Shown piece after piece: positions 12,652 through 57,404 of a stretch of 64,000 bases of DNA; position 1 is the stretch's first letter; the number at the start of each line of letters is the position of its first letter. The DNA lies in the NCBI GenBank assembly GCA_020186115.1, contig WSYJ01000146.1, forward strand, positions 186,001-250,000, read 5' to 3'. The notes under the pieces were generated by a model, which saw nothing but the letters and a program-made list of their open reading frames with translations, was not told where the DNA came from and did not search any database. The position numbers and the translations under genes are program-made. The stretch is from Histomonas meleagridis (taxonomy: Eukaryota; Parabasalia; Tritrichomonadida; Dientamoebidae).

Positions 12652-15600
12652 ATGGAAAGCCGAAATGAAGAAACTGCACTCATCAGTTCCATTTCTTTTG
12701 GGCTTTTTGATCCAATAGAGCTTGAAAACTCCTCCGTATGTGAAGTTACACGGCCAATTGAATTCGAAAATGGTCAACCAGTCGTTAATGGATTGTCAGA
12801 TGCTCGAATGGGAACCGTCTCACGTGATTACCTATGCGATACATGTAACCAAGACAGCGATTCATGTCCTGGACACTTTGGACATATCAAATTAGCATAT
12901 CCTTTATTTCATTTTGGATATCAGGACGTCGTCTATAAGATATTAAATTGCGTATGCCACAAATGTGGTCGGCTCTTATTATCTTATGGTGACCCGGAAG
13001 TCCAAAGAGTAGTTTTACATTATCGAGGAAAACGTAGATTTGAACGTATTTTAGAATTATGTAAAACTCGAAAATGTGAACACAAAAAAGTGGGTGACGG
13101 TGACAAAGAGAATGCAGACGTAGTTAAAGATCCAGCATTTTGGAATGAATTAGGAATCGTTCCAGAAGATGGAGATTATTCAAAAGACCTTCGACAAATT
13201 GAACCATGTCAACAAACGCAAGTTGAAGTTGCACGAGAAGCAGATGGTACCTTATATACAAAAGGATCACTTACACGACAAGACATTACAGCTGCGTCAG
13301 TATTAGACATATTTTCACAAATGAAGGATTGTGATGTCCGTGTCTTAGGATTAGATCCAGAACGATCTCATCCGAAATGGATGATCTTAACAATTCTACC
13401 AGTACCACCACCACATGTTCGACCACCAGTTCGAGTTGAAGGTCTTAATCCATCACCAGATGATGTTACACATCATTTAGGAAATTTAGTTCGATGTAAC
13501 AATGCGTTACTTCGAATGAAAGAATCGAATCAACAACAAACAGCGGTCAAAGAACAATTAGCGTTATTACAATGGACTGTTACCACATATTTCATCAACG
13601 ACAAACCGTCGATCCAACGAGCGGTTACTCGGAACAATAAAGTTATCAAATCCATATCGCAGCGGTTAAAGGGGAAAGAAGGGCATATTCGAGGACATTT
13701 AAGTGGTAAACGTGTTGATTTCAGTGCACGATCAGTGATTTCACCTGATCCATCAATTCGTATCGATCAAGTTGGGGTACCCAAACATATTGCAAAGATA
13801 TTAACGTTCCCCGAAGTTGTTACACAACGTAATCGAGAAGAATTAGCGCAATTAGTCCAAAATGGTCCAGATAAATTAGAAGGAGCTAATTATGTCATTA
13901 ATCCTCAAGGTGTCAAATTTTCATTATCACGAACTACTGAACGTAGTACTATGCATTTAGATGATAATAGTATTGTTGAAAGGCATTTAAAGGATAATGA
14001 TATAGTTATCTTTAATCGACAACCTTCATTACATAAAATGTCAATGATGGGACATCATGCAGTTATAATGCGTGGTAGTACATTCCGATTAAATTTATCT
14101 GTTACTACTCCATATAATGCCGATTTTGATGGCGATGAAATGAATTTACATGTACCACAAAGTCAACAAGCACGAGCAGAAGTTAAACATATTATGTTAG
14201 TTCCAAATCAAATTATATCACCACAAAAGAATGGTCCTATTATTGGTTTGGTACAAGATTCATTATTAGGATGTCGTTTGCTTACTTTAAAGAACACTTT
14301 TTTAAATCGTAATGAAATGATGAACTTAATGATGTGTATTATCCATACAAAGAAGAACATCGTATTATCACCTCCATGTATTATCATACCACAAAAGAAT
14401 ATCTATTTATGGTCTGGGAAACAAGTCTTTTCCTTATTTTTACCATATATTAATTATGATTTTCAAGCAGATACATGTGATAAAGAATGGGAATGGATGC
14501 CACCTAAAGATACACGTGTAATTATTCGTGATGGTAATTTATTAGCTGGGATTTTAGATAAGAAAACTGTAGGTCAAAGTGAGAAATCATTAGCTCATGT
14601 AGTTATTAATTCTTGGGATAAAGATATGGCACGAGATTTCTTAAGTCAAACTCAATTAGTAGTTAATAGTTGGTTAGAATCTCGTGGATTTAGTATCGGA
14701 TTAATTGATGCAGTAGCTAAACATTCGACAATGCAAGAAGTCGAACAACGATTAAAATTATTACGTAAAGATGTTCAAGCAATTATTGATAATGCATTAC
14801 AAGGTAAACAAGAAATTATGCCCGGATTAACATTAATGGAATCATTTGAACAAGTTGTTAATACTCGATCAAATGATATCATTAATCAATGTGGTGCATT
14901 AGTTAAAAAGAATTCTCGATTTTGGAATTCTTTAATGCAAATGGTTGCAGCAGGTAGTAAAGGAGGAGATATTAATATCTCTCAAATCATTGCTACTGTA
15001 GGACAACAAAATATTGAAGGTAAACGTATTAAATATGGATTTAAGAAACGAACATTACCACATTATATTAAGGATGACTTAGGTTTGGAACAACATGGAT
15101 TTTGTTATCATAGTTTCATTGAAGGTTTAACACCACCAGAATTCTTCTTTCATACTATGGCAGGTAGAGAAGGTATTATTGATACAGCTTGTAAAACTTC
15201 TGATACTGGTTATATTCAACGTCGTCTAATTAAATCGATGGAATCACATTCAGTTAAATATGATGGTACTGTTCGTAATTCATTAAATCAAGTGATTCAA
15301 TTCTTATATGGAAATGATGGATTAGATCCAGTAGGACTTGAAACACAAAAAATTCATTTGATTCGGTATTCTGATGAAGATTTCGATCGAATGTTTAAAT
15401 TAGATCCAACTCAACCTACTTTTGGTCAAGGAGTATTACAACCAGAAGTTATTGAAGAATTAAGAAGTCAACAAGGTCGAGCAGAAGAAATATTTAATCG
15501 AGAATATAATCGACTTAAAGAATTCCGAGAAATATTACGTTATGAAATCTTTCCAGAATTAAATGATGTTGGTTGGTTCCCAGTAAATATACAAAGATTA

Positions 15601-18691: not shown

Positions 18692-19789
18692 ATGATAAAT
18701 GAGTTAATTGACTCATTTTATCCTAAATTTTTGGTTATATTTAATGTAATGGATAATTTATTAAACCTAGGAGAAGCCACATATGAAAGCACAGTAGATT
18801 ATATTATTTTATCCAATTTAAAATCTGATCAAATTATTTCTTGTATTCTTACAACAGCAAAAATTAAACCAAATTTGATATATTATTTATCCAAAATAAT
18901 AAAAGAATATGAAAATCACTACCCAAACAAAATTGATTTTTATATTTTTATTAATTTACTTATGGAAAATAGAATTTATTTATTTGTTTTATATCTTTTG
19001 GATTTTGGTTTAATATCAATTCATATGATTCATAGGTTTTTCAAGAAGTCAAATATATTTTTATATTTTGGAAGTGAGATAATACAAAATGAACCTCAAC
19101 TTTATAAAAACATGAAAAACTCATTTATTTGTAACAATTTACTTCGCGAAAATGATTTCTTAAAATTTAATGATAATCAAAGATATTCCGGAAATTCCGA
19201 ATTAATTATTTTAACTTTTATAAGGAAAGATTTAATTGATGAATTTATATATAATTTTAATTTTTTTGAAATTGATCCTAATTATAGAATTGGTCAATCT
19301 TTATATGAAATGAATAATATCCTTAAGAATTGTACATTACTTGAATATGCTGCATATTTCAAAGCAGTGAAATGTTTTAAATTTTTATCGCTTCAAGGTG
19401 CAATAATTACAGATGATACAATAAAATATGCAATTTTTGGAGGAAACATAGAAATATTTGATATTTGTAAACAAGAAAAAAGTAATTTTGATTATATAAT
19501 GGATTATTCTATTCAATCACATAGATATAAATTAAGTAATTGGATTAATCAAACCAATGGAATTAAATATAACTTATTTTATAGCGTTGAATTTTTAAAT
19601 TTATATATATTTTGTAAATCAGATTTCGAAGATATTAATAAAAAATTCGGATTAATTCAAATGACACCATTAATAATAGCTGCAAAAAATGGTTTTTTAG
19701 ACATTGTTAACTTTTTATGTTCTTTTCCTAATATTGATTTATATAGAAGAGATAATATTTGTTCATTTAATTTAATGTTTGCTTTTTAG
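18692..19789 (+). CDS. DUF3447-type protein, N-terminal reading frame of an ankyrin locus
   Basis: About 365 residues from the first ATG (18692; the frame is open to 18662 without ATG). It has the family plan: an N-terminal helical region, a LLEYAAYFKAVKCFKFL motif (compare LIDYAAFFSAVKCFKYL in the others), an AIFGGNIEIFDICKQ segment and a first ankyrin unit (TPLIIAAKNGFLDIVNFL). It is the most divergent member here. The frame ends inside the first spacer (hydrophobic SFNLMFAF then stop), and ankyrin units continue downstream in other frames. Cytosolic ankyrin scaffold role is inferred. Confidence 0.65.
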   Translation: MINELIDSFYPKFLVIFNVMDNLLNLGEATYESTVDYIILSNLKSDQIISCILTTAKIKPNLIYYLSKIIKEYENHYPNKIDFYIFINLLMENRIYLFVLYLLDFGLISIHMIHRFFKKSNIFLYFGSEIIQNEPQLYKNMKNSFICNNLLRENDFLKFNDNQRYSGNSELIILTFIRKDLIDEFIYNFNFFEIDPNYRIGQSLYEMNNILKNCTLLEYAAYFKAVKCFKFLSLQGAIITDDTIKYAIFGGNIEIFDICKQEKSNFDYIMDYSIQSHRYKLSNWINQTNGIKYNLFYSVEFLNLYIFCKSDFEDINKKFGLIQMTPLIIAAKNGFLDIVNFLCSFPNIDLYRRDNICSFNLMFAF

Positions 19790-20716
19790 TTTTGGATTTT
19801 ATTTTTAAGGTTTCATACAGCTTTAATTGCTGCAGGAATAAATGGTCATTTTGATATTTTTGTTTTCTTACTCGAAAAAATGGAAAAAAATAAAATTAAA
19901 AAAAAGGATTTTGTGTTTTTTTATTAATTATGAAAATATTTTTTCATGCATCAAAAAAAGGATTTGTAAAAATTGTAAAATATTTAATTAAAAATAAGTT
20001 TATAAATGTTAATATAAGATCTAAAAATGAAGTTCTTTTTATGTTATCAAATTAACAGCTTTGCATTATGCAGCTTCATGTAACCAGAAAAATGTAATTA
20101 AATTCCTTTTATCACAATCGGAAATAGATATAAATTTTCATGATTCTGAATTTTCTTTTATCTATTTGGAAATTATTTTTATAATTTTATACAGCTTTAC
20201 ATCATGCTACTGATAAAAATAGTGTAAGAGCCGCTAAGATATTGTGTTCAGATGCTAATATTGACACAAATGAAGTAGATAATTAGTTTTTTTATTTATG
20301 ATTGGAATTTATTTAAATATTAAAAAACTGCTTTACATATTGCCGCTGAAAAAGGATATTTGGATATTATTAAAATAATTTGCTCTGTTAAAGAAACTGA
20401 TTTAAATGAATATGATAAAATTCATAAATTTAACTTTTAGTTTCAAAAAATATATTGGGATATGTTTACAAGTTTTAATATGCCAATACATACAGCTGCA
20501 ATATATGGGTCATTAGATGTATTTAAATATTTAGTTAAAAAAAATAAATCATTGTTATTTGCAAAAAATAAATATGTTTATTTTGCAAATTGAGTACTTA
20601 ATTTGATGTTTTGGAGTTTATTTATATATTATATTAATCCACTTGAGTTCGCCTTGAAAGAAAAACAAAACGAAATTGTTGATTTTATAAATTCAAAAGT
20701 GATAGTGATAGAGTAA
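19790..20716 (+). repeat. Ankyrin mini-exon array of the 18.7 kb locus (7 units)
   Basis: Units begin with their Thr-equivalent codon at 19817, 19933, 20055, 20191, 20327, 20480 and 20636. Each is an open ankyrin unit (TALIAAGINGHFDIF, TALHYAASCNQKNV, TALHHATDKNSV, TALHIAAEKGYLDII and so on). Intervals are 116, 122, 136, 136, 153 and 156, so spacers are about 32, 46, 63 and 66 nt with different remainders mod 3, and most contain stops. The last unit (NPLEFALKEKQNEIVDFI) runs to its own TAA at 20714-20716. Whether the units are joined in mRNA cannot be seen from DNA. Confidence 0.75.
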
Positions 20717-21285: not shown

Positions 21286-22193
21286 TTATTTTTTGCATTT
21301 TTGTTTGATCATTTCTTCTATTTCTGGATCCTGGTTCCGCGGAAGTAAAAATGGATCAACTTCAATATTATCAACCTGTAAAAGTAATTTAGCGATTTCT
21401 CTATGCTGAGCATCATTTAAACCATAATAACATCCATACATTAGAGCATTCCAAAATCATATTAAGAAACATTAATTTAAAACAATAAACTTTAAATATA
21501 GCAAAGAGACATTCGTTTCTACATTTACATCAATTCCTTTTTGCTTAAGAAGCAATTTAACGATTTCAACATAACCCCCACGCGAAGCGGCACAAATCGC
21601 CGTCCAAAACAAATTCAAAAAATTCCATACAAGAAATATATACACCAAAAAAAACATGTAAATAGTAAGAGATATTAGTAAACAGATATTGTATTAACTT
21701 CTATTTCTTTTTGTACAAGAAGTAATTTAACAATTTCTGTGTAACCATTGAATGATGAATACATTAAAGCTGTACATAATAATTTCAAAAAATATTAAAA
21801 ATTATTTGTATACATCAATGCAATGATATAAATTTTGAACAAATTAAATAAATATCTTTGGCATTAATATCAATTTCTTTTTGTTTAATAAGTAATTTAA
21901 CTATTTCTGTATGACCATTTTCAGATGCTAAAATAAGTGCTGTTTTAAACAATTTAAAAAATGTCCAAATAATATTATCAAACACTTTATTATAAAAAGA
22001 AATATTAAATATAATAAATAAATATCTTTTGCATTAATATCAATTCCTTTTTGTTCAAGAAGGAATTGAACCATATCAATGTAATTATTTTCAGATGACA
22101 ATATAAGTGCTGTTCTAAAAAAATAAAATAAATATTAAATGAATAAAATATATATAAAATTATTAGAAGAAATATTAAGTAAAACAATTATAA
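21286..22193 (-). repeat. Ankyrin mini-exon array of the 22 kb locus (5 units)
   Basis: Four open 90-nt units (22024-22113, 21854-21943, 21684-21773, 21514-21603) and a longer terminal unit from 21450 to its TAA at 21286-21288. Spacers are 22114-22193, 21944-22023, 21774-21853 and 21604-21683, each exactly 80 nt, and 21451-21513 (63 nt). The terminal unit adds a charged tail (about 25 residues after the ankyrin helix, ending KQKCKK). Spacers start near ATTTATTT and carry in-frame stops. The first spacer also holds the stop of the upstream protein frame. Confidence 0.85.
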
Positions 22194-23310
22194 TATCTTT
22201 TGCATTAATATCAATTCCTTTTTGTTCAAGAAGTAATTTAACAGTTTCAATATTTCTTGATTTATAAGCGAACAAGATTATGTTTTTTGGAATATTATGC
22301 ACGTGAATGAAATCATTTATTAATAAAGTATTACCATTTTCTGAAACTTGTTGAATAATATTATCATTTATTTCCATTCCCTCTTTTTCTAAAAATGAAA
22401 ATATTTCATAATTATTATATTTAATACACTTAATTCCTAATTTTATTAAATCGTTGGTATCCATATTTGTCTTATTATATAAATATATAAATATATCATT
22501 TTGATGAAATTCAATTGCTGTTTCGTATGCATCTTCAAATGATGAATGATTTTGTTCACATAAATGAATAATTTCCTCATTTCCACCTGCAACTGCATAT
22601 TTACCTGTGTTTTCTACTTTTGCTCCATTCATAAGTAAATATTTAAAACATTTAACTGCTGAAAAAAATGCTGCATAATCAATTAATGTAACATTTTCTT
22701 TATTAACAAATGAACATCTTTCAGAAGGTGATGGTTCAATTGTTTGATTAAAATCAAAATTTGTTTGTGATGATATTTCTTGAAGTTTTTCTGTTTCATC
22801 ATTTCGAATTATTTTCGCAATTTCATTTGGATTATGTCCTTCTTCAATTAATTTCTTATGCAGTTCAAAATCATTTTCTTTAAGTTCTTCTATTTGCTTG
22901 TTAATGTTTTCTTTTTCTGGGAAATAATGCATAAAATATGTTTGGATAATTTTTGGTTCAATTATCTCGTCTTCAATCATTTTTTCTAAAAGATAATTTG
23001 ATTCTTGACTATCAGTTGATAATAATAATTGAGTGAAAATGTTGATGATATTATAACTTGACTTTGTTTCGATTGTTTGTAAATACTTGAAACATAATTT
23101 TTCATAGCCACGTGATACAAAATATGAATAAATAATTCTATAAATGATATGAAGAATAGAATATTGAAATTCTAAAGAAATGTAATTTAATGAAGATTCA
23201 ACTAATTGATCAATATTATTTTCATTTAAATCAAATATAATTTTTTCTAGATCTTGTAATATTTGGAGATTTCCTCTGTTAGTTGTTGCATGGCTTTGAC
23301 TTCCTCCCAT
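22135..23310 (-). CDS. DUF3447/ankyrin protein, N-terminal reading frame
   Basis: 391 residues from ATG 23310. N-terminal helical region about 1-190; core motifs GHNPNEIAKIIRND and KLQEISSQTNFDFNQTIEPS (about 190-225), LIDYAAFFSAVKCFKYL (about 240), YAVAGGNEEIIHLCEQ (about 268), then a first ankyrin unit ending GIDINAKD. This is the trichomonad DUF3447 plus ankyrin architecture. The frame leaves the ankyrin unit, reads about 20 hydrophobic residues of spacer (to YILFI) and stops. A TCATTTC initiator-like motif lies about 25 bases upstream. Most intact family member here together with those at 30.5 and 48.1 kb. Role unknown; ankyrins bind proteins. Confidence 0.75.
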   Translation of the reverse strand: MGGSQSHATTNRGNLQILQDLEKIIFDLNENNIDQLVESSLNYISLEFQYSILHIIYRIIYSYFVSRGYEKLCFKYLQTIETKSSYNIINIFTQLLLSTDSQESNYLLEKMIEDEIIEPKIIQTYFMHYFPEKENINKQIEELKENDFELHKKLIEEGHNPNEIAKIIRNDETEKLQEISSQTNFDFNQTIEPSPSERCSFVNKENVTLIDYAAFFSAVKCFKYLLMNGAKVENTGKYAVAGGNEEIIHLCEQNHSSFEDAYETAIEFHQNDIFIYLYNKTNMDTNDLIKLGIKCIKYNNYEIFSFLEKEGMEINDNIIQQVSENGNTLLINDFIHVHNIPKNIILFAYKSRNIETVKLLLEQKGIDINAKDIIIVLLNISSNNFIYILFI

Positions 23311-23811: not shown

Positions 23812-25476
23812 TTAGTTTAATTTTTCGTATTCGTTTGAAATACTCGATAAATTATTTTTACGATTCATTTTCTTTTTCCTAGCGATCAAAATCACTCCGA
23901 TGACAATTATAACTCCAATTGGAACGCAAACTCCAACAACAATTTTCCATTTATTATTATCTTCGACACCATAATTTGGATTGCATTCATCGATTAATTT
24001 TCCTTTAGCTACATCTAAAGCACCAAATTTGCTACTTTTATATGTTTCTGATGTCATTACAATTTTTGCTCGAACTTGATCAAACGCATTCTCAGCAACT
24101 GTTGGTTTATTTTTACCATAAAAATAAATACATTGTAGTTTGAAGCACTCAGAAAACGCTAATGATTGAATTTCTTCCACATTTTCCCCGATATATAGAG
24201 TTGTTAAATTATAACATTCATTAAAAGCTAATTCTTCAATTATTTTTATGGAATTTGGAATTGTTAAGTTTACCAAAAATTTGACTTTAGAAAAAGCACT
24301 TTTGCCAATGTTAATTAAAGTATTTGGTAAAATTAAATCAGAAATTTCTTTAAATAAAGGATATACAATTAATTTGGTAATATTTTTATCATAAACAACT
24401 CCATCATTTTCATAATTGGAATATTTTGGATTTGATTTCGATATGTTAATAATTCGAAGATTTTTACAAGAGCCGAAATAATTTTGTTGAATTAATGTAA
24501 CTGATTCAGGAATTGTAACAATTTTAATGTTATTACAGCCAGAAAATGATTCATTTCGAATTGTATCAACTGAATTTGGTATATTAAATATTTCGTTTTT
24601 TGTTTCCTTGTGGATATTGTATAAGATATGAAACATTTTTGTCGTATAAAAATTCCGTCGTTTTCATAATTGGAATATTTCGGTTTTTGTTCCGAAACTT
24701 TAATGTATTGAAGATGATTACATTCTTTAAATGCATTTTCGGATATTGAAGTAACAGAACTCGAAATTGTTATGTTCTCAATTACCGAATATGAAAATGC
24801 AGCTTCAATCGTTTTAACATTATCACCAATTGTAATTGACTTAAAACTTGATGACATAAATGCATTCGCTTCAATAATTAAGACATTATTTGGTATTATT
24901 AAATCTTGTGAATTTATACATTCAAAAAATGATAATTTGCCAATGGTTATGATTGTATCCGGAATTTGATATTCGGTTTTTTTGGCAGATGGGGAAAAAA
25001 ATAATTGTTGTGATGTCTTTATCATATATAACACCATCGTTATTAAAGTTGGAATAGTGTGCGTTGTCTTCAGATATTGCAATGTGATTAAGCTTATGAC
25101 ACCTCATAAATGAATCTGAGTTAATTGAAGAAACAGATTTTGGTATGCTAATGTTTGTTATTGGACACCCTGCAAATGCAGTGGCATTAATCGTAGTTAA
25201 ATTTTCACCCAAAATAATTGTTATCAAATTGATACACGACATAAATGCACTCGTTCCAATTAAAGTAACTGAATTACCGATATCCACAGAAAGTACACCT
25301 ATCCACAGTTCAAATGCATTTTTTGGAATTTCTTTGATTCCTTCTCCAATAATAATATGTAGAGTACTTAATTGGTAGTCATCATTAAATTCACTTGGAT
25401 TATTTATTGTAAGCGTTTTTGTTTTACTATCGTATGTCTGCAAAGAATGTGAAAAAAGAAGAAAAAAGAAAGTCAT
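23812..25476 (-). pseudogene. BspA-like surface protein with frameshifts in homopolymers
   Basis: Start at ATG 25476 (MTFFFLLFSHSLQ, a short signal peptide), with TCATAA one base upstream of the ATG. BspA-type LRRs follow in three overlapping frames, and the gene ends with one transmembrane helix (about 23 residues, KIVVGVCVPIGVIIVIGVIL) and a short basic tail with a Tyr motif. Breaks: near 25000 in a T7/C4 run, near 24640 after GGAATTTTT, and near 24600 in an A6 run. The recurring block YDK.I..L..YP links the pieces in all frames, so this was one gene of about 550 residues. Every break is in or beside a homopolymer. TAAA at the stop. Confidence 0.8.
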
Positions 25477-30413: not shown

Positions 30414-30443
30414 TAAATTAGCACTTTTTCAATAAAGCGACCG

Positions 30444-31826
30444 TTATTTTTGTAATTGTACTATTTCTGCATAACCACTTGAACATGCTAAAATATATGC
30501 TGTCTCAAATAATTTGATTAATTTCCAAATATTTTTTTTAAAATATTAAATTATTAAAATAAAATCCAAATTAAACAAATAAATACTTTTAGCATTAATA
30601 TTAATTCCTTCTTGTTTCAAAATATATTTAACAAGCTCAAGATTACTTGAATTGGAAATATTTAATAAAATATCTTTTGGAATTTGATTGTTTTGGAAAA
30701 AGTATTGAACAAGAAATATGTTTCCGTTTCTTACTGATTCATTAATAACATTATCATTAATTTTCATTCCATCATCAATTAAATATATTAAAATTTCAAA
30801 GTTATAACATAAAACACATTTAACTCCTAATTCCCCCAAATTATTAATTTTTTCAATTTTATTTTCATATAAATAATGAAAGTTATCGTTTCGATGAAAT
30901 TTAACTGCTGTTTCATATGCATTTTCAAATAATGTATGATTTTGTTCACATAGATGAAGAATTTCTAAATTCCCACCTGCAATCGCATATTTACCTGTAC
31001 TTTCTAATTTTGCACCATTCACAAGTAAATATTTGAAACATTTAACAGATGAAAAAAATGCTGCATAATCAATTAATGTAACATTTTCTTCATTAACAAA
31101 TGAACATCTTTCATAAGGCGATGGTTTTATTATTTGATTAAAGTCAAAATTATGTTGTGATGATATTTCTTGAAGTTTTTCGATTTCATCATTCCGAATT
31201 ATTTTCGCAATTTCATTCGGATTATTTCCTTCTTTAATTAATTTATCATCAAGTTTATTATTATTTTTCATTTGGTTATTCGAATGCTTATCGTAATAGT
31301 CATAAAATATATTATAATATTGAGTGTTTCCTTTTGTATGAAATTGGTTAAATAATTTTGAAATATCTTCTTTAATTAAATTTCGTTCATTCATATGAAA
31401 AATTATATAAAAAGTTTCTTGTGATTTCATTTTACATATATGATTAATAAATATTTCAATGATTTTATAATTTTCATTTATTTCTTTTTCTTTATTTTCA
31501 AGTGCTTCTAAATAATTTAAATATAAATCAATGTCACTTTTTCGAGATACAAATGCAGAATAGATTAAAATACTTATAACAATATTAAATGAATATGGAT
31601 AATTTGTGTCTAAAACATTCATTGTTTGTTCAATTGAATGTTGAAGATTTTCATTTGATAAATTAAAAACCATTTCCTGAAGTGATACTAAGTATGGAAG
31701 ATAATCTATACTATTTACAGGATCTGTTTGTAGATTTAATGAATATTCTGTGGAATTTGAGGAAGAATTCACTTGTGTTTTATGTAATGTTATATACATA
31801 TTATGCGTTAAAAGCAGAAAATACAT
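30444..31826 (-). CDS. DUF3447/ankyrin protein (copy 1 of an inverted duplication)
   Basis: The main frame is 31826-30546 (426 residues). N-terminal helical domain about 1-200; NPNEIAKIIRNDEIEKLQEI; NFDFNQIIKPSPYERCSFVN; LIDYAAFFSSVKCFKYLL; AIAGGNLEILHLCEQNH; a first ankyrin unit ending GININAKS. It then reads 12 spacer residues (IYLFNLDFILII) and stops. After an 81-nt spacer (30504-30584) one short ankyrin unit (TAYILACSSGYAEIVQLQK) ends at TAA 30444-30446. About 290 residues are nearly identical to the plus-strand copy at 54.2 kb. Two ATGs in different frames (31830 and 31826) overlap at the start; only 31826 opens the protein. Confidence 0.75.
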
Positions 31827-38367: not shown

Positions 38368-40175
38368 ATGATTCTTCTGTTTCTAGCACGAGTACTGTCT
38401 CAATCATCTTATCAGAGATCTCAAATACAAAGTTTAACTGCAAGGTTTGATTTAAGTTGGTTACAATTTGCTAGCAATATCATCAAAACATCTAAACTCA
38501 CCAATTCATTTTTTAATTTAAATAATGAACACGAATATCATTTAAGAAAACCTCTTGCAACAGATAGTTCATGGGAAGCATATGACCAAATATATGTTAA
38601 ATTTATGAGTGATGGTATACCATGGCTTTACAACTTCATGGACAACTTCTTCTTCAAGTGGCTTGTTTAAACAAAGTATGTTTTCAGGCGGTGTTCAAAT
38701 ATCTGCATCATATTTTTATCTAATTTGTGTCTATCCGTATTCATTGATAACAGACACAAGAAAACAAAATGGCGAAGTAACAATGAAAGCTTTAGACTAC
38801 ATGTTTGGTCAATCAAGCACAATTCGATCCTCTACTGACACAGTAACTGTAACACTTTCTAGAAAAAATGGCTCGTTTGTATTTAACAATTCATTTTGGC
38901 ACAACACAAATTACATCACAGACACTTACAGATTATACTTTTTATATTAGTGGTATAAAACATGAAGGATATTACAATGATGCAAGCGCAGCTGTTAATT
39001 CAGATGTGGTTAATAATTGGGACATTACAAAAATTTGCACTGCTAATACAGCCTCTCAAACAATCGGATGTAAAATGATATTATATCCATAAACATTAAC
39101 AAATGGAATTACGTTATCTGTTGTTCGAAATGGACAATCTGTAGATGAAGTAATTCAAATTAATTTGTTATAATCAGGGTATATATATAATTGTGATATT
39201 ACTATGGATTTGATAACTTTAACTTTTACGAAGTCAAATACTTTTTCAAATACATTTACATCATCTAATACATTTTCGAATACTTTTACGCAATCAAATA
39301 CATTTACTCAGTCAAATACATTTTCAAACTCATATACATTTTCAAATTCAAATTCATTTTCGAATTCGAATACATTTTCGAATTCAAATTCATTTTCTCA
39401 GTCAAATACATTCACCGAATCGAATTCATTTTCTAACACATTTACTATGTCGAACACGTTCTCACAATCTAATACATTCTCAAACACATTTACTATGTCA
39501 AACACTTACTCACAATCGAATTCATTCTCAAATACATTTACATCATCAAATACATTTTCAAATTCAAATACATTTACTAAGTCAAATACATTTTCAAATT
39601 CAAATACATTTACTAAGTCAAATACATTTTCAAATTCAAACACATTTTCTAAGTCAAATACATTCACAGAATCATTAAAGTATAATGAACAATATACGTA
39701 TTCCATAACTATAACATATTCTATTGTATTTGAAGAGACTCATAGTATGACACAGGTTTTATCTGATACATTTACATTAATGAATTATAATTCTACTTAT
39801 TCATATACCAACACATTACTCATTGTTTATCAATATACAATTGTTAAATATCCAACGTATTATCCAATATATTCACAATTTTATATGATTATGCCAATAG
39901 ACAACAATATAAATGAAAATAATAATAATACAACTACAATAATAATCGTAGTCGTATGCATAGTTGTGGTTGTTGCGATCATATGTTTAGTTGTCGTTTT
40001 ATATATTCGTCATCAAAGAAATAATATACAGCAAACAGAAAAGGCTGAAAGTATTGACGCGGAATATGGAATAGAAACTGAAACTACAAATGATTACACT
40101 GCAACTAAAATAAATCATATTTTAGATGACCCATTTGCAGAAGATTTCGTGGAAGATAATCGTATAAACATTTGA
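38368..40175 (+). pseudogene. Surface stalk protein with SNTF repeats and one TM helix, decayed
   Basis: A signal peptide (MILLFLARVLSQ) starts an ectodomain of unknown fold, with two frameshifts (near 38640 and 38900). In the last frame two TAA codons lie at about 39090 and 39171. The frame then enters a Ser/Asn/Thr/Phe stalk of about 150 residues (SNTFSNS, SNTFTKS and variants, roughly 8-residue units), a TM helix (IIIVVVCIVVVVAIICLVVVL) and an acidic tail of about 60 residues with FAEDFVEDN. The plan (signal, ectodomain, stalk, TM, acidic tail) is that of a trichomonad surface protein. The repeats also occur in the chimeric gene at 41-44 kb. Both TAA could have come from Gln codons. Confidence 0.7.
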
Positions 40176-40529
40176 TTTCATACGAAATTAAATAGTTCTT
40201 TAGTAAACATCCATAGTTTGTATCTCGAATAAATTTTTGGGCTTAAGGAAAGTGGCGTTTGGGGTGCCCCACAACGATAGTTATGACGACCGTTTATTTC
40301 ACTTGAAAAATTATTAATTAAATCCTAAGGAATATTATTAAATTGAGTTCAATGTACAAATATATTTTCTTGCTATTAAGCATAAAATTAGATATGACAT
40401 ATGCCAAATCATGTATTCATTTTTGTTGATTTTTTATTTGTTTTTTGTTATATTTATTTGTTTGGCCTAAAATTTGTAGTAAAAATTTTAGATTTCATTC
40501 TAATATATTTTGTTTCTACAAAATATTTA
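40176..40529. other. Intergenic with GGGGTGCCCC box
   Basis: No gene. GGGGTGCCCC at 40261-40270 is followed by CGACCGTTTAT at about 40288, a combination resembling other promoter boxes in the window. The rest is AT-rich. Confidence 0.35.
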
Positions 40530-40680
40530 TAAATGCATCTCTAAATCGACACATAGAAATAGTAAGATTACTTGATATCAAGTAATCCAGAAAGATCCAT
40601 ATTTATTTATTCTTTAATTCAAAATGATATTTGGGAAATATTTATATTATTTCAAACAGCTGTTTATTTATTCGACTAAG
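40530..40680 (+). pseudogene. Ankyrin mini-exon fossil with spacer
   Basis: ASLNRHIEIVRLLDIK then stop, followed by a spacer with the family sequence (ATATTTATTT...ATTTCAAACAG) and a truncated next unit (TAVYLFD). A leftover of a DUF3447/ankyrin array. Confidence 0.6.
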
Positions 40681-40975
40681 TTTGACCATATATACATAAA
40701 GAAGGTTAAAATATAACAAGAATAAACTCATTTATATTATGGTAAGAAATCGGTAGAAAAATATATAAAATAATTGATTTTTTTCAGTAAATGATTTTTG
40801 AATTTGTTCTTAATGTTCTATTATCCGACAGATAAACATGAAGTCATTGGAAGATTTTCAATGTGGAAATTGTTTCTTCTCTTTTTGTCTTTTGTATAAT
40901 ATGATTTGAGTGCTTTACGTGTGTCAAAATATGATACCGACCGTTAATGATATTTTATTTTATGAAAGAATGATA

Positions 40976-41003
40976 AACCGTTTATGATATTATATAAACG
41001 GTT
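40976..41003. repeat. Perfect hairpin with 10-bp arms
   Basis: AACCGTTTAT, 8-base loop, ATAAACGGTT. Both arms carry a Myb-type core (AACCGTT/AACGGTT). It stands alone in a 450-base gene-free stretch upstream of the chimeric gene; function unknown. Confidence 0.6.
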
Positions 41004-42239
41004 ATTTTTCGGACAGAAATTACCGGCCGATGGATAGATTTTCGAAAATCCGGTACTATAATTATTCGTCGTTTTATATAATCATGCATATTATCAAAAA
41101 CAAAAGAATTTAAAATTTAATTTGATTTATTCATAAAAATATCTGAAAATGAAAAAGATAGTAATCAAAACATTCCGAACATTATTGATATTTTTAGCGA
41201 ATATCTTCTTCTCTTAAAATTTCAAGAATCAGATTATATCCTTGGAAAGTTGTTGGAACAAGATTTAATCGATTCAAATTTTGTTCAAAAGAGAAAAGAA
41301 ATATATTTTGCACATTATAATGATGATATTTATGATATACACCAAAATCCAACAAATGAATATTTTTTTTTGAAAATTATGAAGAACTTTCAAAGAATGA
41401 TTTTGAACTTCACATATGTATTAATATCAAAAGCATTGCAATTCCAAAATCAGTTACATCAATATCAACAAATTCATTTTTATATTGTTCAAAACTTCAA
41501 TTTATTATTTCCAAAGAAAATTTATATTATTCTAATTATGAAAATGATGGAATTTTATATGATAAAAATATTGAAAAATTAATTTGTTATCCAATAGGAA
41601 ATGTAATAAATGTATTTACAATACCAAATTCAGTTATATCAATATGTGAAAGAGCATTTGAATCATGTAATAATATCAAAACGATTATTTTTGAAGAAAA
41701 TGTTGAAACTATTGAAAGTTATGCATTTTATTCATGTTCTAATTTAGAAACACTTTTTATTGGCGAAAATGTTAAAACAATTGGAAATTATGCATTTTCT
41801 TTATGTACATCACTTAAATGTATTTATTTTAATGGTAATGAATCACCAACAATTGGAAATGGATTTTCTAGTATTACAGTTACATCTGTTATGGTGGCTT
41901 CGACATATAATGGTGACACATATGACAGCTTCAGTGTTTCCAAAGGAACAACAATTGACGAATGCATTCCATCAACACAAACATTTTCTCAATCAAATAC
42001 ATTCACATTATCAAATACATTTACTAAATCAAATACATTTTCTCAAAGCAATACATTTTCTAAATCTAATATATTCTCATTATCAAATACATTTTCTCAA
42101 TCGAACACATTTACGTTATCAAATACATTCACAAAATCAAATATATTTTCTCAATCAAATACATTTATATCATCAAATACATTTTCTCAAAGCAATGAAT
42201 TTACTAAATCGAATACATTTACGTTATCAAATGCATTTA

Positions 42240-42271
42240 TAGGGGGGACGGAAATGTTTTATTCTAAATAT
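42240..42271 (+). repeat. Mariner left terminal inverted repeat
   Basis: Matches the right end (43500-43531) in inverted orientation with two mismatches (an extra-G position and one T/C). Confidence 0.85.
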
Positions 42272-42430
42272 GATCCTTTTATTTTTTTTTAATAAAAATT
42301 ATATATATATAAATACAAAAGACTGTAATAATAATGATATAATTTTTGAAATCAGAAATATTTTATATATCAAGAAAATGTCATAAATGAACTTTCATAT
42401 TGTCATTCTTTTTAAACATTTTTCATTTGT

Positions 42431-43458
42431 ATGGAAGTCGAACAAAGAGCAGTCATATTTTTCCTGAAAAGAAAAGGCTTTAAACTCAGCCAAATTAAAC
42501 AAGAGTTAGATGATGTTTATCATTAAGATGCACTCGATATTAATACCATAAAATATCGGGTGCATCAATTTAAATTAGGGAGATCTGAAATAACAAACAT
42601 TCAAAGTCCAGGAAGACCAATACTTAATTTCATTGATTCAAAAATTTTGGCTGCACTCGAAATGGAACCATTTCATTCGACATATACATTAAGTGAAGGC
42701 CTTATCTATACCACGATCCACCATAAATGATCACCTCAATAAATTAGGCTTCCATTATTATAATTTAAGCGTGGTTCCATATGAACTGACATGTGAAATG
42801 AAAGAAGAAAGAGTGCGAAAAGCAACTGAGCTTATTGATATCTTAAAAGTTAGTAAGAGAACAGGTTTTCATAGAATCATAATCGGGGATGAATCATGGT
42901 TTTTCTTATCATATGATCACAAGCATATGTGGTCACAATCAAGAGATAATTTACCTGAAATTATCGATACAAAAATTGACACGATAAAATATATGGTAAC
43001 TATCTTTTGGAATATTGATCAATTTTTTATAGTTGATATTATGAAAGATGGTGAAAAATTTAACTCAAAGTATTTTATTAATAATATAATTAAACCCCTT
43101 GAAGCAAATTGTATACCCACAAAGAAAAAAGCCCAATGAAAACCCATATGTTTTACATTTCGATAATGCATCTCCCCATACCTCTAATGCTTCAACTAAA
43201 TTTTTGGTTGCTAATGATTTTAAAAGAGCTCCACAGCCACCATATTCACCAGATCTTGCTCCTTCAGATCTCTTTTTATTTGGTTTTTTAAAAAATCAAC
43301 TAGAAGGAGAAAAATTCGATGATTTTCAACAATTGCACGATAAAATAACTGAAATTTTGTGTGAAATTTTAAAGGATACTTTAGCAAAAGTTTTTGAAGA
43401 ATGGATTGAAAGATGTCAATGGGTGATAAATAACAAAGGTAACTACTATCATAAGTAA
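42431..43458 (+). pseudogene. Mariner transposase, broken
   Basis: Three frames together give a mariner-type transposase: an N-terminal helix-turn-helix region (VEQRAVIFFLKRKGFK onward) with a TAA at about 42524; a middle part (STINDHLNKLGFHYYN, then IIIGDESWFFLSY with the first catalytic Asp); and a C-terminal part (VLHFDNASPHTS with the second Asp, PPYSPDLAPSDLFLFGFL with the third). The signature is DD34D-like, as in mariner. Frameshifts near 42695 and 43130 and the stop make it inactive. Confidence 0.9.
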
Positions 43459-43499
43459 ACCTAAAGAAAATTATTAAAATCTTTTATTTCGATTCTATT

Positions 43500-43531
43500 A
43501 TATTTAGGATAAAACATTTCCGTTCCCCCTA
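43500..43531 (-). repeat. Mariner right terminal inverted repeat
   Basis: Reverse complement of the left end; ends CGTTCCCCCTA next to the TA duplication at 43532-43533. Confidence 0.85.
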
Positions 43532-44015
43532 TACTAAATCGAATACATTTACATTATCAAATACATTTACTAAATCGAATATATTTACATTATCAAATAC
43601 ATTTACAGATTCATTTCGTATCGATGATAATTTCACATATTTTATTGCATTAACATATTCATTAATATTTACACAAACGAATTCTATAAATACGATATAT
43701 TCGAAAAACACGATTTCACTTTCATTTCATAATTCTATTTCTTATTATATTTCGACATATATTATTTATTATGATTATATCATTGTTCAATATTCTATAT
43801 ATTTCAAATTTTATTCATATTTTTATACATTTTTTTCATTTTTAAACATATTATATATTTTTATTTTGATTGATCTGCAGATGCAGACTTCAATTGAAAA
43901 TGTGGTTAAGTATATGGTGCATACTGCTTTGCGACTATTTCAGCAAGAAACTCAAATGCATTTTGTACAATTTACATTCAATCGAACATCAATAACGCGC
44001 AAATTCTCGTTTTAA

Positions 44016-45209: not shown

Positions 45210-48140
45210 TTAAAACGTTTCATCAGTTCCAATAAACAATGATAATAAATCCATATTTCCTTTTTCAACAGCGATCTGGAGTGCTGTTCGCAAGAATAAT
45301 AAGAAATTCCAAATAAAATTTTATAATTTTAATTCAAAAATTGAAATATTAAAGATAAAAATGAAATATCTTCGATATCTATATCGATATATACTTGATT
45401 AAGTAATAATTCAACAATTTCTGGTCGGTTCTTAAGTACAGAAATAATAAGTGCTGTTTTAAATCATTTAAATAATTTCCAAATATTATTTTGAAGTTTT
45501 AAATATTTATTTTTAATATTGTGCTCACCAAATAAATATTTTTAAAATTAATATCAATATCTTTTTGTTCAAGAAGTAATTTAACGATTTCTTTATTTCC
45601 TTTTTCAGTTGCATAAATAAGTGCTGTTTTAAATATTTTAAATAATTTCCAAATATTATTTTGAAATATCAAATTATTAAAATAAATATCAAATAAAACA
45701 AATAAATATCTTTAGCGTTAATATCAATTCCTTCTTGTTCAAGAAGTAATTTAATTATTTTTATATGACCTTTTTCCGATGCTTTAATAAGTGCTGTATA
45801 AAATAATTTAAATAATTTCCATATATTATTATGAAATATAAAATTATTAAAATAAATATCAAATAAAACAAATAAATATCTTTAGCGTTAATATCAATTC
45901 CTTCTTTTTCAAGAAGTAATTTAACTATTTCTGTATAACCTTTATAAGATGCTTCCATAAGTGCTGTTTCAAATAATTTAAATAATTCCCAAATATTATT
46001 TTGAAATATCAAATTATTAAAATAAATATTATCTTTAGCGTTAATATCAATTCCTTCTTGTTCAAGAAGTAATTTAACTATTTCTGTATTATTATTTTTA
46101 GATGCTAATACAAGTGCTGTTGCATATAGTTTAAACTAAAAATAATTTTCAAATATTTGTTTGAAAAATCATATAGATGAAATAAATATTTGCATTAATA
46201 TAAACACCATTATGCTCAAGAATTGATTTGACATTTTCAAGATTTCCATTTATGCATTCATTCAAAAATTCCACTTTAATATCCTATAATTAACATCAAT
46301 AAAAACTTTGAAACATAAAATCAACAAAAAAGATATTTTGAAAATATAAAATATGGATATCTTAGTGCATATTTCGATGTTTTCATGTTGAAGAAATGAT
46401 AAAACGAAATCAATAATTTGATTTTGAATAAATTCTATTGAAGGAGCTTTAATTGTTAAAAATTAAATTTGATAAATGGATATCTTTCTTATCATAATTA
46501 AAATCATGATCTTCATTAAGTAATTTTAGGATAAAATCATGGCCTTTTAGTGATTTTTTATTTGTTGATTTATATATTTATAAAAAAACATCAAATTTAG
46601 AGAATAAACATTATCATTATTATAAATATTTGTTTTCAGCAAAATTTTAACTGTATCAATGATATTACACATCGAGATTTGATTAAATAACTCATCAAAT
46701 ATATATAAATGAAATAAACAATTTCTTCATCAAAATTATGATACCCCTCTAATTCAAGTAAATTTTTTATAATTTCGTTAAATCCATTTGCTATAATATT
46801 TATAAATATTGCATAAAATAATGTTAAGAAATTTTATATGAAATTTAAAAATCAAAAACTTTAAATAAATATGTCATTGTCTAAATCATTTACTTCTTCT
46901 TCATTGTATAATTCAGTGGAATCAAAAATACCATTCAAAAACATTTCCATAATTCGTGATTTAAATCATTTGAAGAAACTTCATATATTATATTGAAATA
47001 AGAAACCAATATAAAAAACTGGTTATAAAAAAAATTAATTTTAGTATTATTCTTAATAATTCTTTCTTTTTCAGATATGAGTTGTACAATTTCATTATTA
47101 TTTATTTCTAATGAAAATTTAAGTGCTGTTTTACATAATTTAAATAATCTCCAAACATTATTGTAAAATATCAAATTATTATAATAAATTTTAAACAAAA
47201 CAAATAAATATTTTTAACATTAATATCAATTCCTTCTTTTTCAAGAAGTAATTTAACTATTTCGGTGTTCTCATTCTCAGATGCAATCATAAGTGCTGTT
47301 TCAAATAATTTAAATAATTTCCAAATATTATTTTGGAATTAAAGTATTAAACATAAATAAATATCTTTAGCATTAATATCAATTCCTTCTTTTTCAAGAA
47401 GTAATTTAACTATTTCTGTATTATCTCTCACACACGCTTTAATAAGTGCTGTTTGAAATAATTTAAATAATTTCCAAATATTATTTTGGAATTAAAATAT
47501 CAAACAAAATAAATAAATATCTTTAGCATTAATGTCAATTCCTTCTTTCTCAAGAAGTAATTTAACAATTTCGGTGTTCTCATTCTCAGATGCAATCATA
47601 AGTGCTGTATTAAATAGCTTAAATATTTTCCAAATATTATTTTAAAATATAATAAAATTTAAAGAAAATTTGAAAAAAAATTATAAATGTCTTTAGCATT
47701 GATATCGATTTTTTTATTTTTAAGAAGCAATTTAACCATTTTTAATTGATTATTTTTGATTGAGTATAATAAGGAAGTTTTAAATAATGGATATTATCTC
47801 TAAATTTTATTTAAAAATTTTGTAAATTCAAAAGAAACATATTTCAAATTAACATCAATTCCTTCTTTTTCAAGAAGCAATTTTACAATATCATAGTAAC
47901 CTTTTTTGATTGCCCAAATAAGAGGTGTTTTAAATAATTTAGAAAGATTCCATAAATAAAAAAGAAATTTGGAATATTTGGGAAATACTTCATGCAAAAC
48001 ATATAAATATCTTTAACATTTACATTAATTTCCTTATGTTCTAAAAGTGATTTAACAATATCAATTAAATAATTTTTTGTTGCATACAGAAGAGGATTTA
48101 TAATTATTTTAATTTAATTCCAGATTTAATTTTAAAACAT
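45210..48140 (-). repeat. Ankyrin mini-exon array of the 48 kb locus (about 15 units)
   Basis: Open ankyrin units alternate with stop-containing spacers. Thr-codon landmarks (GTGCTGT on the plus strand) lie at 45281, 45451, 45621, 45791 and 45961, exactly 170 bp apart, then 46114 (153). Upstream are 47123, 47293 (170), 47446 (153) and 47602 (156), and further units near 47770, 47920 and 48090. Examples: TALMEASYKGYTEIVKLLLE, TALMIASENENTEIVKLLLE. The last unit (TALQIAVEKGNMDLLSLF) ends at TAA 45210-45212. 46.2-46.95 kb holds diverged or partly decayed units. Several spacers contain a TTCCAAA...TTTGGAA inverted repeat. Confidence 0.85.
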
Positions 48141-54258: not shown

Positions 54259-55566
54259 ATGACCCTATCGTTAAAATTTCATATAACATTACATAAAACA
54301 CAAGTGAATTCTTCCTCAAATTCCACAGAATATTCATTAAATCTACAAACAGATCCTGTAAATAGTATAGATTATCTTCCATACTTAGTATCACTTCAGG
54401 AAATGGTTTTTAATTTATCAAATGAAAATCTTCAACATTCAATTGAACAAACAATGAATGTTTTAGACACAAATTATCCATATTCATTTAATATTGTTAT
54501 AAGTATTTTAATCTATTCTGCATTTGTATCTCGAAAAAGTGACATTGATTTATATTTAAATTATTTAGAAGCACTTGAAAATAAAGAAAAAGAAATAAAT
54601 GAAAATTATAAAATCATTGAAATATTTATTAATCATATATGTAAAATGAAATCACAAGAAACTTTTTATATAATTTTTCATATGAATGAACGAAATTTAA
54701 TTAAAGAAGATATTTCAAAATTATTTAACCAATTTCATACAAAAGGAAACACTCAATATTATAATATATTTTATGACTATTACGATAAGCATTCGAATAA
54801 CCAAATGAAAAATAATAATAAACTTGATGATAAATTAATTAAAGAAGGAAATAATCCGAATGAAATTGCGAAAATAATTCGGAATGATGAAATCGAAAAA
54901 CTTCAAGAAATATCATCACAAACAAATTTTGACTTTAATCAAATAATAAAACCATCGCCTTATGCAAAATTAGAAAGTACAGGTAAATATGCGATTGCAG
55001 GTGGGAATTTAGAAATTCTTCATCTATGTGAACAAAATCATACATTATTTGAAAATGCATATGAAACAGCAGTTAAATTTCATCGAAACGATATCTTTCA
55101 TTATTTATATGAAAATAAAATGTGTAAAATTAATGAAGAAAAAGAACGACAATTGAGGCTCAATGGTTCACATGGAAATAATTGGGGATGTGGTGAGACA
55201 CATGAAATGATTCTCTTCAATCAAACGCTTAAAAAGTCGGTAAAAGTTTCAATTGATTATGGGAATTATTCAATTCTTTCATTTTTGGTCGAAAAAGGTA
55301 TAAAAGTAGATAGATCTAATGATCTTATCGAATCAGCAAATATTGGGAATGTATATCTTATAAAGCAATTTCTCCCAATTCCTCTACTTAAACTTGTTTT
55401 GCCCAATTCTGCAGAACCTGAAAATATGGAAACTTTAAAATATATTCTTGAAAATGATGGAGAAAATATCAATTATCTGGATGTTTATTTTTTTTGTTTT
55501 CTATTTATTTTTATGATTTTATACTATTTTAAAATAACATTTGGAATTTGTTCTATTTATTTTTAA
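54259..55566 (+). CDS. DUF3447/ankyrin protein (copy 2 of an inverted duplication)
   Basis: About 435 residues from ATG 54259. Residues about 10-300 repeat the protein at 30.4-31.8 kb almost exactly, with one in-frame 99-base deletion that removes the core motif block (PSPY joins AKLESTGKY, losing ERCSFVN through NG). The two diverge after FHYLYENK, where copy 2 has a different segment (QLRLNGSHGNNWGCGETHEM). It ends with one ankyrin-like unit (LKLVLPNSAEPENMETLKYI) and reads into the first spacer before stopping. Loss of the LIDYAAFF block may have made the protein non-functional, but the reading frame is kept. Confidence 0.7.
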   Translation: MTLSLKFHITLHKTQVNSSSNSTEYSLNLQTDPVNSIDYLPYLVSLQEMVFNLSNENLQHSIEQTMNVLDTNYPYSFNIVISILIYSAFVSRKSDIDLYLNYLEALENKEKEINENYKIIEIFINHICKMKSQETFYIIFHMNERNLIKEDISKLFNQFHTKGNTQYYNIFYDYYDKHSNNQMKNNNKLDDKLIKEGNNPNEIAKIIRNDEIEKLQEISSQTNFDFNQIIKPSPYAKLESTGKYAIAGGNLEILHLCEQNHTLFENAYETAVKFHRNDIFHYLYENKMCKINEEKERQLRLNGSHGNNWGCGETHEMILFNQTLKKSVKVSIDYGNYSILSFLVEKGIKVDRSNDLIESANIGNVYLIKQFLPIPLLKLVLPNSAEPENMETLKYILENDGENINYLDVYFFCFLFIFMILYYFKITFGICSIYF

Positions 55567-57404
55567 CGGCATTAATGAATGCATGTAAAAATGATCGAAT
55601 AGAAACTGTTAAATTCCTTCTTGATCAAGAAGGAATTAATGTAAATGTTATGGATATTTATTATTGTAGTTTGAAATATATTTCAATATCATTGGGTTTA
55701 GTGTTAGTATTTGGAGCTTGTTTAAATAACTTAGTATTTCAAATTAATATTTCGGAATTATTTAAAATATTTAATACTGCACTTATATGGGCATCTGCAA
55801 AATGTAACGTGGAAATAATTAAATTACTTCTTAAACAAGAAGGAATTGAAACTAATGTAAAAAATATTTAAAAATTTTTTATAAAATTTATTTAATTTAT
55901 ATAATATTTCAAAGTAATATTTGGAAATTATTTAAATTATTTGATTCAGCGCTTATTCTAGCAACTAAAAAAAATAATGAAGAAATCGTTCAATTATTAC
56001 TTGAACATGAAGGAATTGACACTAATATTTGTGATAATTTTTTATTTTATTTGGGATTTATTTAAATAATTTGATATTTTATAGTTATCTTTGGAAATTA
56101 TATAAGTTATTTAATATGCCTCTTCATATTGCAACTGAAAAATGTAACATAAAAATAGTTAAGTTATTACTAAACCAAAAAGGAACTAATGTTAATGCAG
56201 GCAATATATATATATTCGTTTTCGACTTTACTTTAATAATTTGATATTTTGAATGAATATTTGATATTTTGAATTAATATTTATTTCAGCACTCATGATA
56301 GCAGCTATAAAAGGTGATATAGAAATTGTTCAATTATTACTTGACCATAATGGAATTAATGTCAATGCTAACAATATTTATTTGTTTTGTCTAAAATTTA
56401 TTTTTATAAATTGAAGTTCCAAAATAATATATAGAAAATATATAAAATATTTTACACAGCACTTATGGCTGCAACTATAAAAAATAACATAGGAATAGTT
56501 AAATTGCTTCTTGAACAAAAAGGAATTAATGTTAATCAACAAGATGTTTAAATGTTTTATTTAAAATTTAATTTAATAATTTGATAATTGAATATAATAT
56601 TTGGAATTCAACCAATTTATTAATGACTGCACTTATGATGGCATGTGGAATAGGTAACATAGAAATAGTTAAATTGCTTCTTGAACAAAAAGGAATTGAT
56701 GTTAATATTAATGATATTACCTTGTTTTATTTTGGATTTATTTTAATAAATTGATATTTCAAATAAATAGATGGAAATTCTTCAAATTATTTAGAACAGC
56801 ACTTACATATGCATCTCCAAATTCGGAAATAGTTAAATTACTAGAAAAACATGGAGCTATTAAAACAAAAGGCGAAAATATTTCATTAATTTTATTAATA
56901 TTTATTTTAAATAGTTAAAATTTCAATATAATTTTTAAAAATCAAATGTCAAAAATATTTCCTCGAAATCAAGAAATAAATGATTTATTACCATTTAGTG
57001 ATAAAAACATATCTGATATAAAATCGAATGATATTTATTAGCAATATAAAATGTTTTTATAAATAATTTGGAAATTATTATAATTATTCGGTAAATCTCA
57101 TATAAATGCACCAAGAAGGCAAGCAAAAATTGATAATGTGTTCATGCAAAAAAGAAATAATGTTAACGAATCAACTAATTCAACACCTAATAACAGGAAC
57201 ACTCCAGTTAATGGTTCTCGAAGAATTTATCATGAGCACAAATTGGTAAAAATAATAGAGGAAAGTAATAATAAAGAAATCAAAAAAGACAAAATCGACA
57301 TAAGCACGCAAACAAATAATCGATTTGTTCACAAAAAAACATCACCAAAAATTATTTTATTTGAAAAAGAAGTATTAAATATAAAATTACCACCAAAATC
57401 CTAA
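55566..57404 (+). repeat. Ankyrin mini-exon array with terminal exon (54 kb locus)
   Basis: Seven units of exactly 90 nt start at 55566, 55776, 55946, 56116, 56286, 56456 and 56626, and an eighth of 84 nt at 56796. From 55776 every interval is exactly 170 bp, so six successive spacers are exactly 80 nt although their sequences differ widely. All units are open (TALMNACKNDRIETVKFL, PLHIATEKCNIKIVKLLL, ALMIAAIKGDIEIVQLLL and so on). After the eighth comes a non-ankyrin open piece (about 56946-57032, MSKIFPRNQEINDLLPFSD), a 60-nt spacer of the same type, and a final open piece from about 57084 to TAA 57402-57404 (GKSHINAPRRQAKIDNVF, ending KLPPKS). Confidence 0.88.

Follow-up and report, generated by a model that had tools for sequence, protein, structure and literature searches.

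Genes for repeat proteins that arise by tandem exon duplication carry one repeat per exon, keep a symmetric exon phase and grow by duplication of an exon together with its intron. A family of ankyrin genes in the parabasalid Histomonas meleagridis would share all three features and would differ in a copy number in the thousands and in an unusual class of intron. We describe this family starting from one gene at 54259-57404 of a 64,000-nt window (assembly GCA_020186115.1, contig WSYJ01000146.1, positions 186,001 to 250,000, forward strand), in which short ankyrin-coding units alternate with AT-rich spacers. The published H. meleagridis genome has 43 Mb and 28% GC, and its annotation holds 573-638 introns, at most one per gene, as far as the available text of that report goes (PMC8529796); the assembly used here has 43.28 Mb in 121 contigs, with 27.8% GC in the window. 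The introns of Trichomonas vaginalis are all GT/AG according to the available part of one description (PMC12316389). Parabasalid short GT-AG introns (type B of T. vaginalis, and candidates of like shape found here) resemble the array spacers in being short and lying within protein genes, but the spacers mostly lack in-frame GT-AG ends, all lack the CTAAC branch motif, and occur many to a gene. Noncanonical introns of diplonemids (PMC12621601) and nonconventional introns of euglenids (PMC4770533) are likewise intron-like without GT-AG ends; in the available portions of these sources they are described as able to base-pair and so bring their ends together, whereas the array spacers fold no better than shuffled sequences. 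The non-GT/AG introns of tunicates, to judge from the available part of their report, likewise form a large set escaping GT/AG (PMC13326754); compared with these, the array spacers have no recognisable end dinucleotides and are so far confined to one gene family. No report of introns in such ankyrin arrays was found in the open-access literature by titles and abstract openings of the entries listed, and the single ankyrin-named protein in a table from a proteomics study, in its accessible part (PMC10063853), is not informative here.

The gene probably extends over the whole of 54259-57404, with a head exon carrying DUF3447, a run of ankyrin exons and two closing non-ankyrin exons (Table 1). 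At its core a first-pass annotation had described ankyrin units exactly 170 bp apart, all open, with six 80-nt non-coding spacers between them. This geometry is borne out: the seven unit starts from 55776 to 56796 are each exactly 170 bp apart, every unit is open, and the spacers contain stops in two frames in six of six cases and in the third frame too in three of six. The spacers had also been called strongly diverged, and their mean pairwise identity is 0.66 (0.57-0.74; shuffled-spacer baseline, 0.40), but the divergence of the units is nearly the same (0.69). All six are of one length, as had been said, although a gapped alignment is better for 4 of the 15 spacer pairs, so that freedom from indels holds only in part. 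The array proved longer than described: an 83-nt spacer precedes the unit at 55566 and a 120-nt spacer follows it, and two probable spacers, of 81 and 57 nt, lie downstream of the last ankyrin unit. GC content is 6-16% in the spacers of this gene against 28-30% in its exons and units. Single ankyrin exons match PF00023 above cut-off in five of five cases, from profile position 3 or 4 to 30-32 of 33, and the DUF3447 profile is above cut-off in all five heads of the window. For the last exon, a paralogue was sought in the genome and the sole match was the exon itself; no Pfam family exceeded the cut-off in it. As this exon is non-ankyrin, spacers of this type may occur outside ankyrin sequence as well.

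The same anatomy recurs throughout the genome. In 20 fetched loci (L numbers) plus the window, a unit profile found 346 units in 20 of the 21 sources (none in L015), with 253 of 323 successive distances at exactly 170 bp, followed by 171 (20), 153 (10), 173 (6) and 150 (4). The 170-bp consensus holds genome-wide, most spacer columns having one base in at least 85% of units. A whole-genome search with exact flanks returned 1,558 spacers of 67-97 nt, against 0 with the reversed pattern; with 120 spacers of 81-97 nt and 265 between 49 and 79 nt among exact-flank spacers, 1,173 to 1,438 are therefore exactly 80 nt. In a sample that includes L014, 165 of the 287 spacers of 67-97 nt have exact flanks, as do 7 of 18 sampled short ones, and the extrapolated genome total is about 2,700 spacers plus several hundred short ones. 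Unit pairs lacking a spacer (0-30-nt gap) with the same exact flanks numbered 0 genome-wide, leaving no spacer-free copy from which to read the junction. Among the matches listed, the short spacers fall mainly at 60, 63 and 66 nt, the long ones at 81 and 83 nt. The 81-nt spacers seemed at first to restore the frame, yet only 16 of 28 examined are open over the stretch viewed (L014 rows and three repeats of one C40 row left out). It had been suggested that the unit geometry is itself selected: 80 nt does dominate, but lengths of 57-66, 76-78, 81-83, 100 and 120 nt occur, and the fixed part of the spacer geometry is a 3' module 23 nt before the exon, not the total length. Ankyrin genes free of spacers also exist, with open frames of 984, 600 and 1,578 residues at L034, L037 and L038, so that interruption is no general need of ankyrin genes here; at L033 a gene of the same head family has an uninterrupted 34-residue period, yet is itself split by a frame change.

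The units carry a strong coding signal. Identical sequences were collapsed to 214 distinct 170-bp units and 216 distinct spacers; loci L001-L008, which overlap others, were left out, L029-L043 do not enter the counts, and the L014 array (40 units), with homopolymer insertions and stops, was excluded from most of them. The 214 distinct units contain 0 stops, where the column frequencies predict 99.2, and the codon preceding the unit contains 0, where they predict 20.4, about 120 expected in all; these expectations assume independent columns, and the arrays are not independent of one another, so that the values are to be read as yardsticks, not probabilities. The deficit is greatest at the variable codons, with 0 stops against 35.9 expected at codon 5 and 0 against 37.1 at codon 8, while a wider set of 260 units has a single stop at each of the two, TGA at codon 5 and TAA at codon 8. 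The residue specified by the codon preceding the unit sits directly before Thr in the ankyrin loop; Asn, Glu, Lys, Arg, Trp, Asp, Tyr, Gln and others occur there, with no stop in the 260. Read in this frame ACAGCA is Thr-Ala, and because the codon before it is hypervariable and never a stop, the exon, judged by its coding signal, starts upstream of ACAGCA. The AT...AG boundary of the first-pass annotation (G/ATATTT ... ACAG/CA) is contradicted by this codon, and 34 of the 216 distinct spacers have no AG at the ACAG position. By letters alone, in-frame AT-AG ends closing at ACAG fit 203 of 270 spacers, but this candidate was rejected, as it places a coding codon inside the intron. Outside the variable positions, exon codons show missense changes at 0.59 and synonymous changes at 1.44 of the spacer-derived rate. 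By subtraction, the variable codons have a missense value of about 1.9 (3.5 in recent arrays, defined by a spacer identity of 0.9 or more) and a synonymous value of 1.6.

Over all arrays, the surface codons 4, 5, 8, 9, 11, 12 and 30 and the codon before Thr are highly variable, with a missense excess in recent arrays. The pattern of changes looks as if the ankyrin binding face were diversifying.

By the same measures, coding constraint on the spacers is slight or absent. In recent arrays, stops in the two continuing frames (leaving and arriving) number 14 against 13.3 and 26 against 28.9 expected. Single-change rates over the whole set are 0.93-1.04 for missense, 0.68-1.19 for synonymous (0.68 being the arriving frame of the 3' half) and 0.80-0.91 for nonsense changes. 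Among the matches listed of the 265 between 49 and 79 nt, the 55 distinct in-frame 63-nt spacers (repeated rows dropped by eye) contain 21 stops against 22.7 expected, and so are not read through either; the stops fall at codons 10, 14, 16 and 18, none at the codon before Thr, and 38 of the 55 are fully open. The coding signal ends sharply at both spacer sides: it breaks off either at the Asp codon or at the next one, and resumes either at the codon preceding Thr or one codon upstream of that. In the target array a TAA lies two codons past the Asp/Asn position in two of six spacers, which gives the same limit. The spacers thus interrupt coding sequence and are themselves non-coding.

Because the exons and the codon preceding them are under coding selection, the spacers under little or none, and the frame is restored only by skipping, we take the spacers as removed. 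Our preferred reading, to which we give a probability of about 0.73 from sequence evidence, is that they are short AT-rich introns whose removal from the RNA would yield one protein per array. The first-pass proposal that the spacers are removed from RNA stands insofar as, by stop counts and substitution rates, they behave as excised non-coding sequence between coding units; that removal takes place at the RNA level is likely. A DUF3447 exon, a run of ankyrin exons of about 93-102 nt and a closing exon would be joined into one protein, and by eye the last unit is in frame and cap-like in 10 of 24 arrays. Arrays would grow by tandem duplication of the exon plus intron unit and, the exon being a multiple of 3, any copy number keeps the frame. 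The putative intron would run from the Asp codon (or the one after) to the hypervariable codon before Thr (or the one earlier), about 71-77 nt within the 80-nt class.

Recognition would probably depend on a 3' element, WWTGG...TTT, exactly 23 nt before the exon. WWTGG, the clearest signal in the spacers, stands exactly at this place in 165 of 216 distinct ones, against 1 in which it is displaced by up to 3 nt, and by class in 147 of 182 spacers of 80 nt, 9 of 16 of 60-66 nt and 9 of 18 others. As the first-pass annotation had noted, the T. vaginalis 3' intron motif is absent beyond chance (3 matches against 2 in the reversed control). The CTAAC branch motif is found in 0 of 270 spacers, and U12-type AT-AC ends are in frame in 66 of 270, too few to assign the spacers to that type. 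A genome search for U12 small nuclear RNA gave no match, in a search where the controls gave no match either. RNA family models found two transfer RNAs at gathering scores in the window, and one open reading frame of the genome, 2,333 residues long, carries the PRP8 domain PROCN. Candidate introns of 23-25 nt with GTATGT...CTAAC...CAG make up 10 of 22 pattern matches, the total of 22 not exceeding the reversed control (30). One likely ordinary 23-nt intron, GTATGTTTTATTTTTAACTCCAG, lies on the minus strand of L016 (8125-8147 in reverse-complement coordinates), between two open pieces of a small plausible protein gene. More tentatively, and in our estimate somewhat short of even odds, about three thousand introns may conform to no known rule for intron ends, being recognised by a 3' element that keeps a constant distance of 23 nt, dedicated to one expanding ankyrin family with diversifying binding-face codons, and processed by an altered spliceosome or a separate machine.

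A far diverged member of the family at 18692-20716 adds independent support, having the same layout with its ankyrin pieces in three frames. Cut at the landmarks of the arrays, its exons measure 96, 99, 93, 93, 96 and 96 nt; the codon after Asp was set as exonic in three places, so that divisibility by 3 is in part a product of this choice, but the frame changes are not. Its spacer lengths cover all three classes modulo 3, and by eye WWTGG lies 23 nt before the exon in five of the seven, the 20- and 23-nt spacers, which lack it at that position, being the weakest.

Several observations weigh against intron removal. The spacers are, by their ends, not GT-AG introns, as in-frame GT-AG pairs close to both edges occur in only 54 of 270 (216 without). 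In diverged spacers, TTT at columns 92-94 is the one well-conserved part of the 5' end, and no stable RNA fold was detected (mean z +0.28 against single-base shuffles, for 120 of 182 distinct spacers); when the consensus is folded, its 5' end stays unpaired. Over the whole set, spacer stops are mildly below expectation (32 against 45.8 and 85 against 121.7), and in recent arrays nonsense changes stand at 0.49-0.63, a deficit alike in all three frames that therefore indicates no frame-specific constraint. Among the matches listed, spacer lengths of 1 modulo 3 look rare and, by eye, shortened spacers seem biased to lengths divisible by 3, which excision does not predict. The joined loop may be 1-3 residues shorter than the 34-residue period of uninterrupted relatives. 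Stop-bearing units, at any spacing, number 4 of 270 outside L014 (in L010, L021, L023 and L025) and 6 of 38 in L014, which also has homopolymer insertions. The head is broken before or in the first unit in 10 of 18 fetched loci with a head match (L010, L013, L014, L019, L020, L021, L023, L025, L026 and L027), and L011 has no head match, so that many arrays may be dead or misassembled. In favour of removal, the four stop-bearing units outside L014 all belong to arrays with a broken head. Where the head runs intact into the first unit (L009, L012, L016, L017, the plus strand of L018, L022, L024 and L028), the eight fetched arrays have 0 stop-bearing units in 116, and the window has 0 in 23. Of five broken heads inspected, those of L010, L013, L014 and L019 shift frame at homopolymer runs and that of L021 at a short duplication. 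The homopolymer frame changes in these four heads and in the L014 units may reflect either assembly error or decay.

Such breakage bears on the possibility that the arrays are a silent reservoir or dead, with only the DUF3447 head, or the head and first unit, translated, and downstream units kept similar by recombination and never read through. In its favour, the head frame alone is intact into the first unit in 8 of the 18 loci with a head match and broken in the other 10, and some copies (L025, L014) are nearly identical. We nevertheless consider it unlikely, since codons 5, 8 and the one before Thr take many forms and never a stop in the distinct units, with just the single TGA and single TAA in the wider set; since diverged arrays still have open units and arrays with intact heads have no stop-bearing ones; and since no uninterrupted recipient gene with close unit copies appeared among the matches listed of 374. 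Translation through the spacers, with the ribosome shifting by -1 in every 80-nt spacer and reading straight on in the 60-66-nt class, would fit the common lengths of 80/83 and 60/63/66 nt, the 81-nt spacers that are open over the stretch viewed, and a consensus open in both frames over the 5' part of the spacer. One shift could join 205 of 239 spacers of length 2 modulo 3 outside L014, and in recent arrays 156 of 169 are joinable against 37.3 for shuffled spacers, but this high joinability is inherited from the shared consensus. There is little stop avoidance at the two most stop-exposed codons (18 against 19.9 and 28 against 36.5 expected), the in-frame 63-nt spacers hold stops at the expected rate, six of nine spacers in L012 are not joinable, yet no unit there has a stop, and the diverged gene has 43-nt spacers (1 modulo 3); the explanation is improbable.

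Ribosome bypassing, in which the ribosome would hop over each spacer and leave the RNA whole, agrees with spacers that are untranslated and with a landing side marked by a fixed element 23 nt upstream. In known bypasses, however, the peptidyl-tRNA re-pairs on a matching codon, whereas here the take-off codon is mainly Asp/Asn and TTT directly precedes the resume point in 231 of 260 cases. We know of no precedent for bypassing at thousands of sites in nuclear genes, and regard it as very improbable. The chance that the whole pattern is an assembly artefact in repeats is smaller still: frame changes at homopolymers in some heads and in L014 resemble long-read errors, but more than 1,000 units on many contigs with one geometry, and the same anatomy in the diverged gene, speak against it.

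Table 1. Ankyrin-array features of the window, with parts of the gene at 54259-57404 (positions are those of the window).
Feature	Position	Strand	Remarks
DUF3447 gene, ankyrin pieces in three frames	18692..20716	+	spacers 57, 20, 23, 43, 43, 57, 60 nt
Second array, 6 units	21361..22284	-	head open reading frame 22135-23310
Two units behind head open reading frame 30546-31826	30414..30674	-	
Two arrays of 6 units	45368..48098	-	spacers 60-80 nt
Probable first exon, DUF3447 and degenerate ankyrin, ATG to Asp codon before first spacer	54259..55482	+	open reading frame 54259-55566; DUF3447 6.7e-08
Spacer, 83 nt	55483..55565	+	final 3 nt counted as first codon of next exon; 3' module score 19.2 at 55540
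Ankyrin unit	55566..55655	+	nhmmer unit, open reading frame
Spacer, 120 nt	55656..55775	+	contains second, weaker 3' module copy at 55710
Ankyrin unit 1 of exact array	55776..55865	+	90 nt, as units 2-6
Ankyrin unit 2	55946..56035	+	Ank PF00023 1.9e-06 with preceding codon
Ankyrin unit 3	56116..56205	+	
Ankyrin unit 4	56286..56375	+	Ank 8.6e-08
Ankyrin unit 5	56456..56545	+	
Ankyrin unit 6	56626..56715	+	Ank 1e-08
Six 80-nt spacers	55866-55945, 56036-56115, 56206-56285, 56376-56455, 56546-56625, 56716-56795	+	
Last ankyrin unit	56796..56879	+	84 nt, 28 codons
Probable spacer, 81 nt	56880..56960	+	less certain, without TTTGG at usual place
Probable non-ankyrin exon	56961..57032	+	72 nt, 24 codons
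Probable spacer, 57 nt	57033..57089	+	TTTGG 23 nt before next exon; module score 21.7 at 57067
Probable last exon	57090..57404	+	315 nt, 104 codons and stop

Elsewhere in the window, the plus strand at 12652-17835 encodes the largest subunit of RNA polymerase II, whose long tail is made up of YSPTSPS-like heptads; the T. vaginalis enzyme is not known to have regular heptads, so that this tail makes a marked contrast. Stretches of SNTFTxSNTF repeats with an 18-nt period lie at 39204-43607, and by eye the proteins encoded on the minus strand at 4675-8029 and 23812-24636 resemble BspA-type leucine-rich repeat proteins.

If the spacers are introns, a genome believed intron-poor would contain a large set of unusual ones, and a single family would hold several times the published intron number, with more than 20 introns in the array of L024 alone, whose 24 units follow an intact head. 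A gene finder would detect mainly the head of such genes. The family would represent massive intron multiplication through tandem exon duplication and a new type of splice site in a lineage with strict splice motifs, and it would reveal, in a parasite of the bird gut, an otherwise hidden family of long ankyrin proteins whose surface codons diversify.

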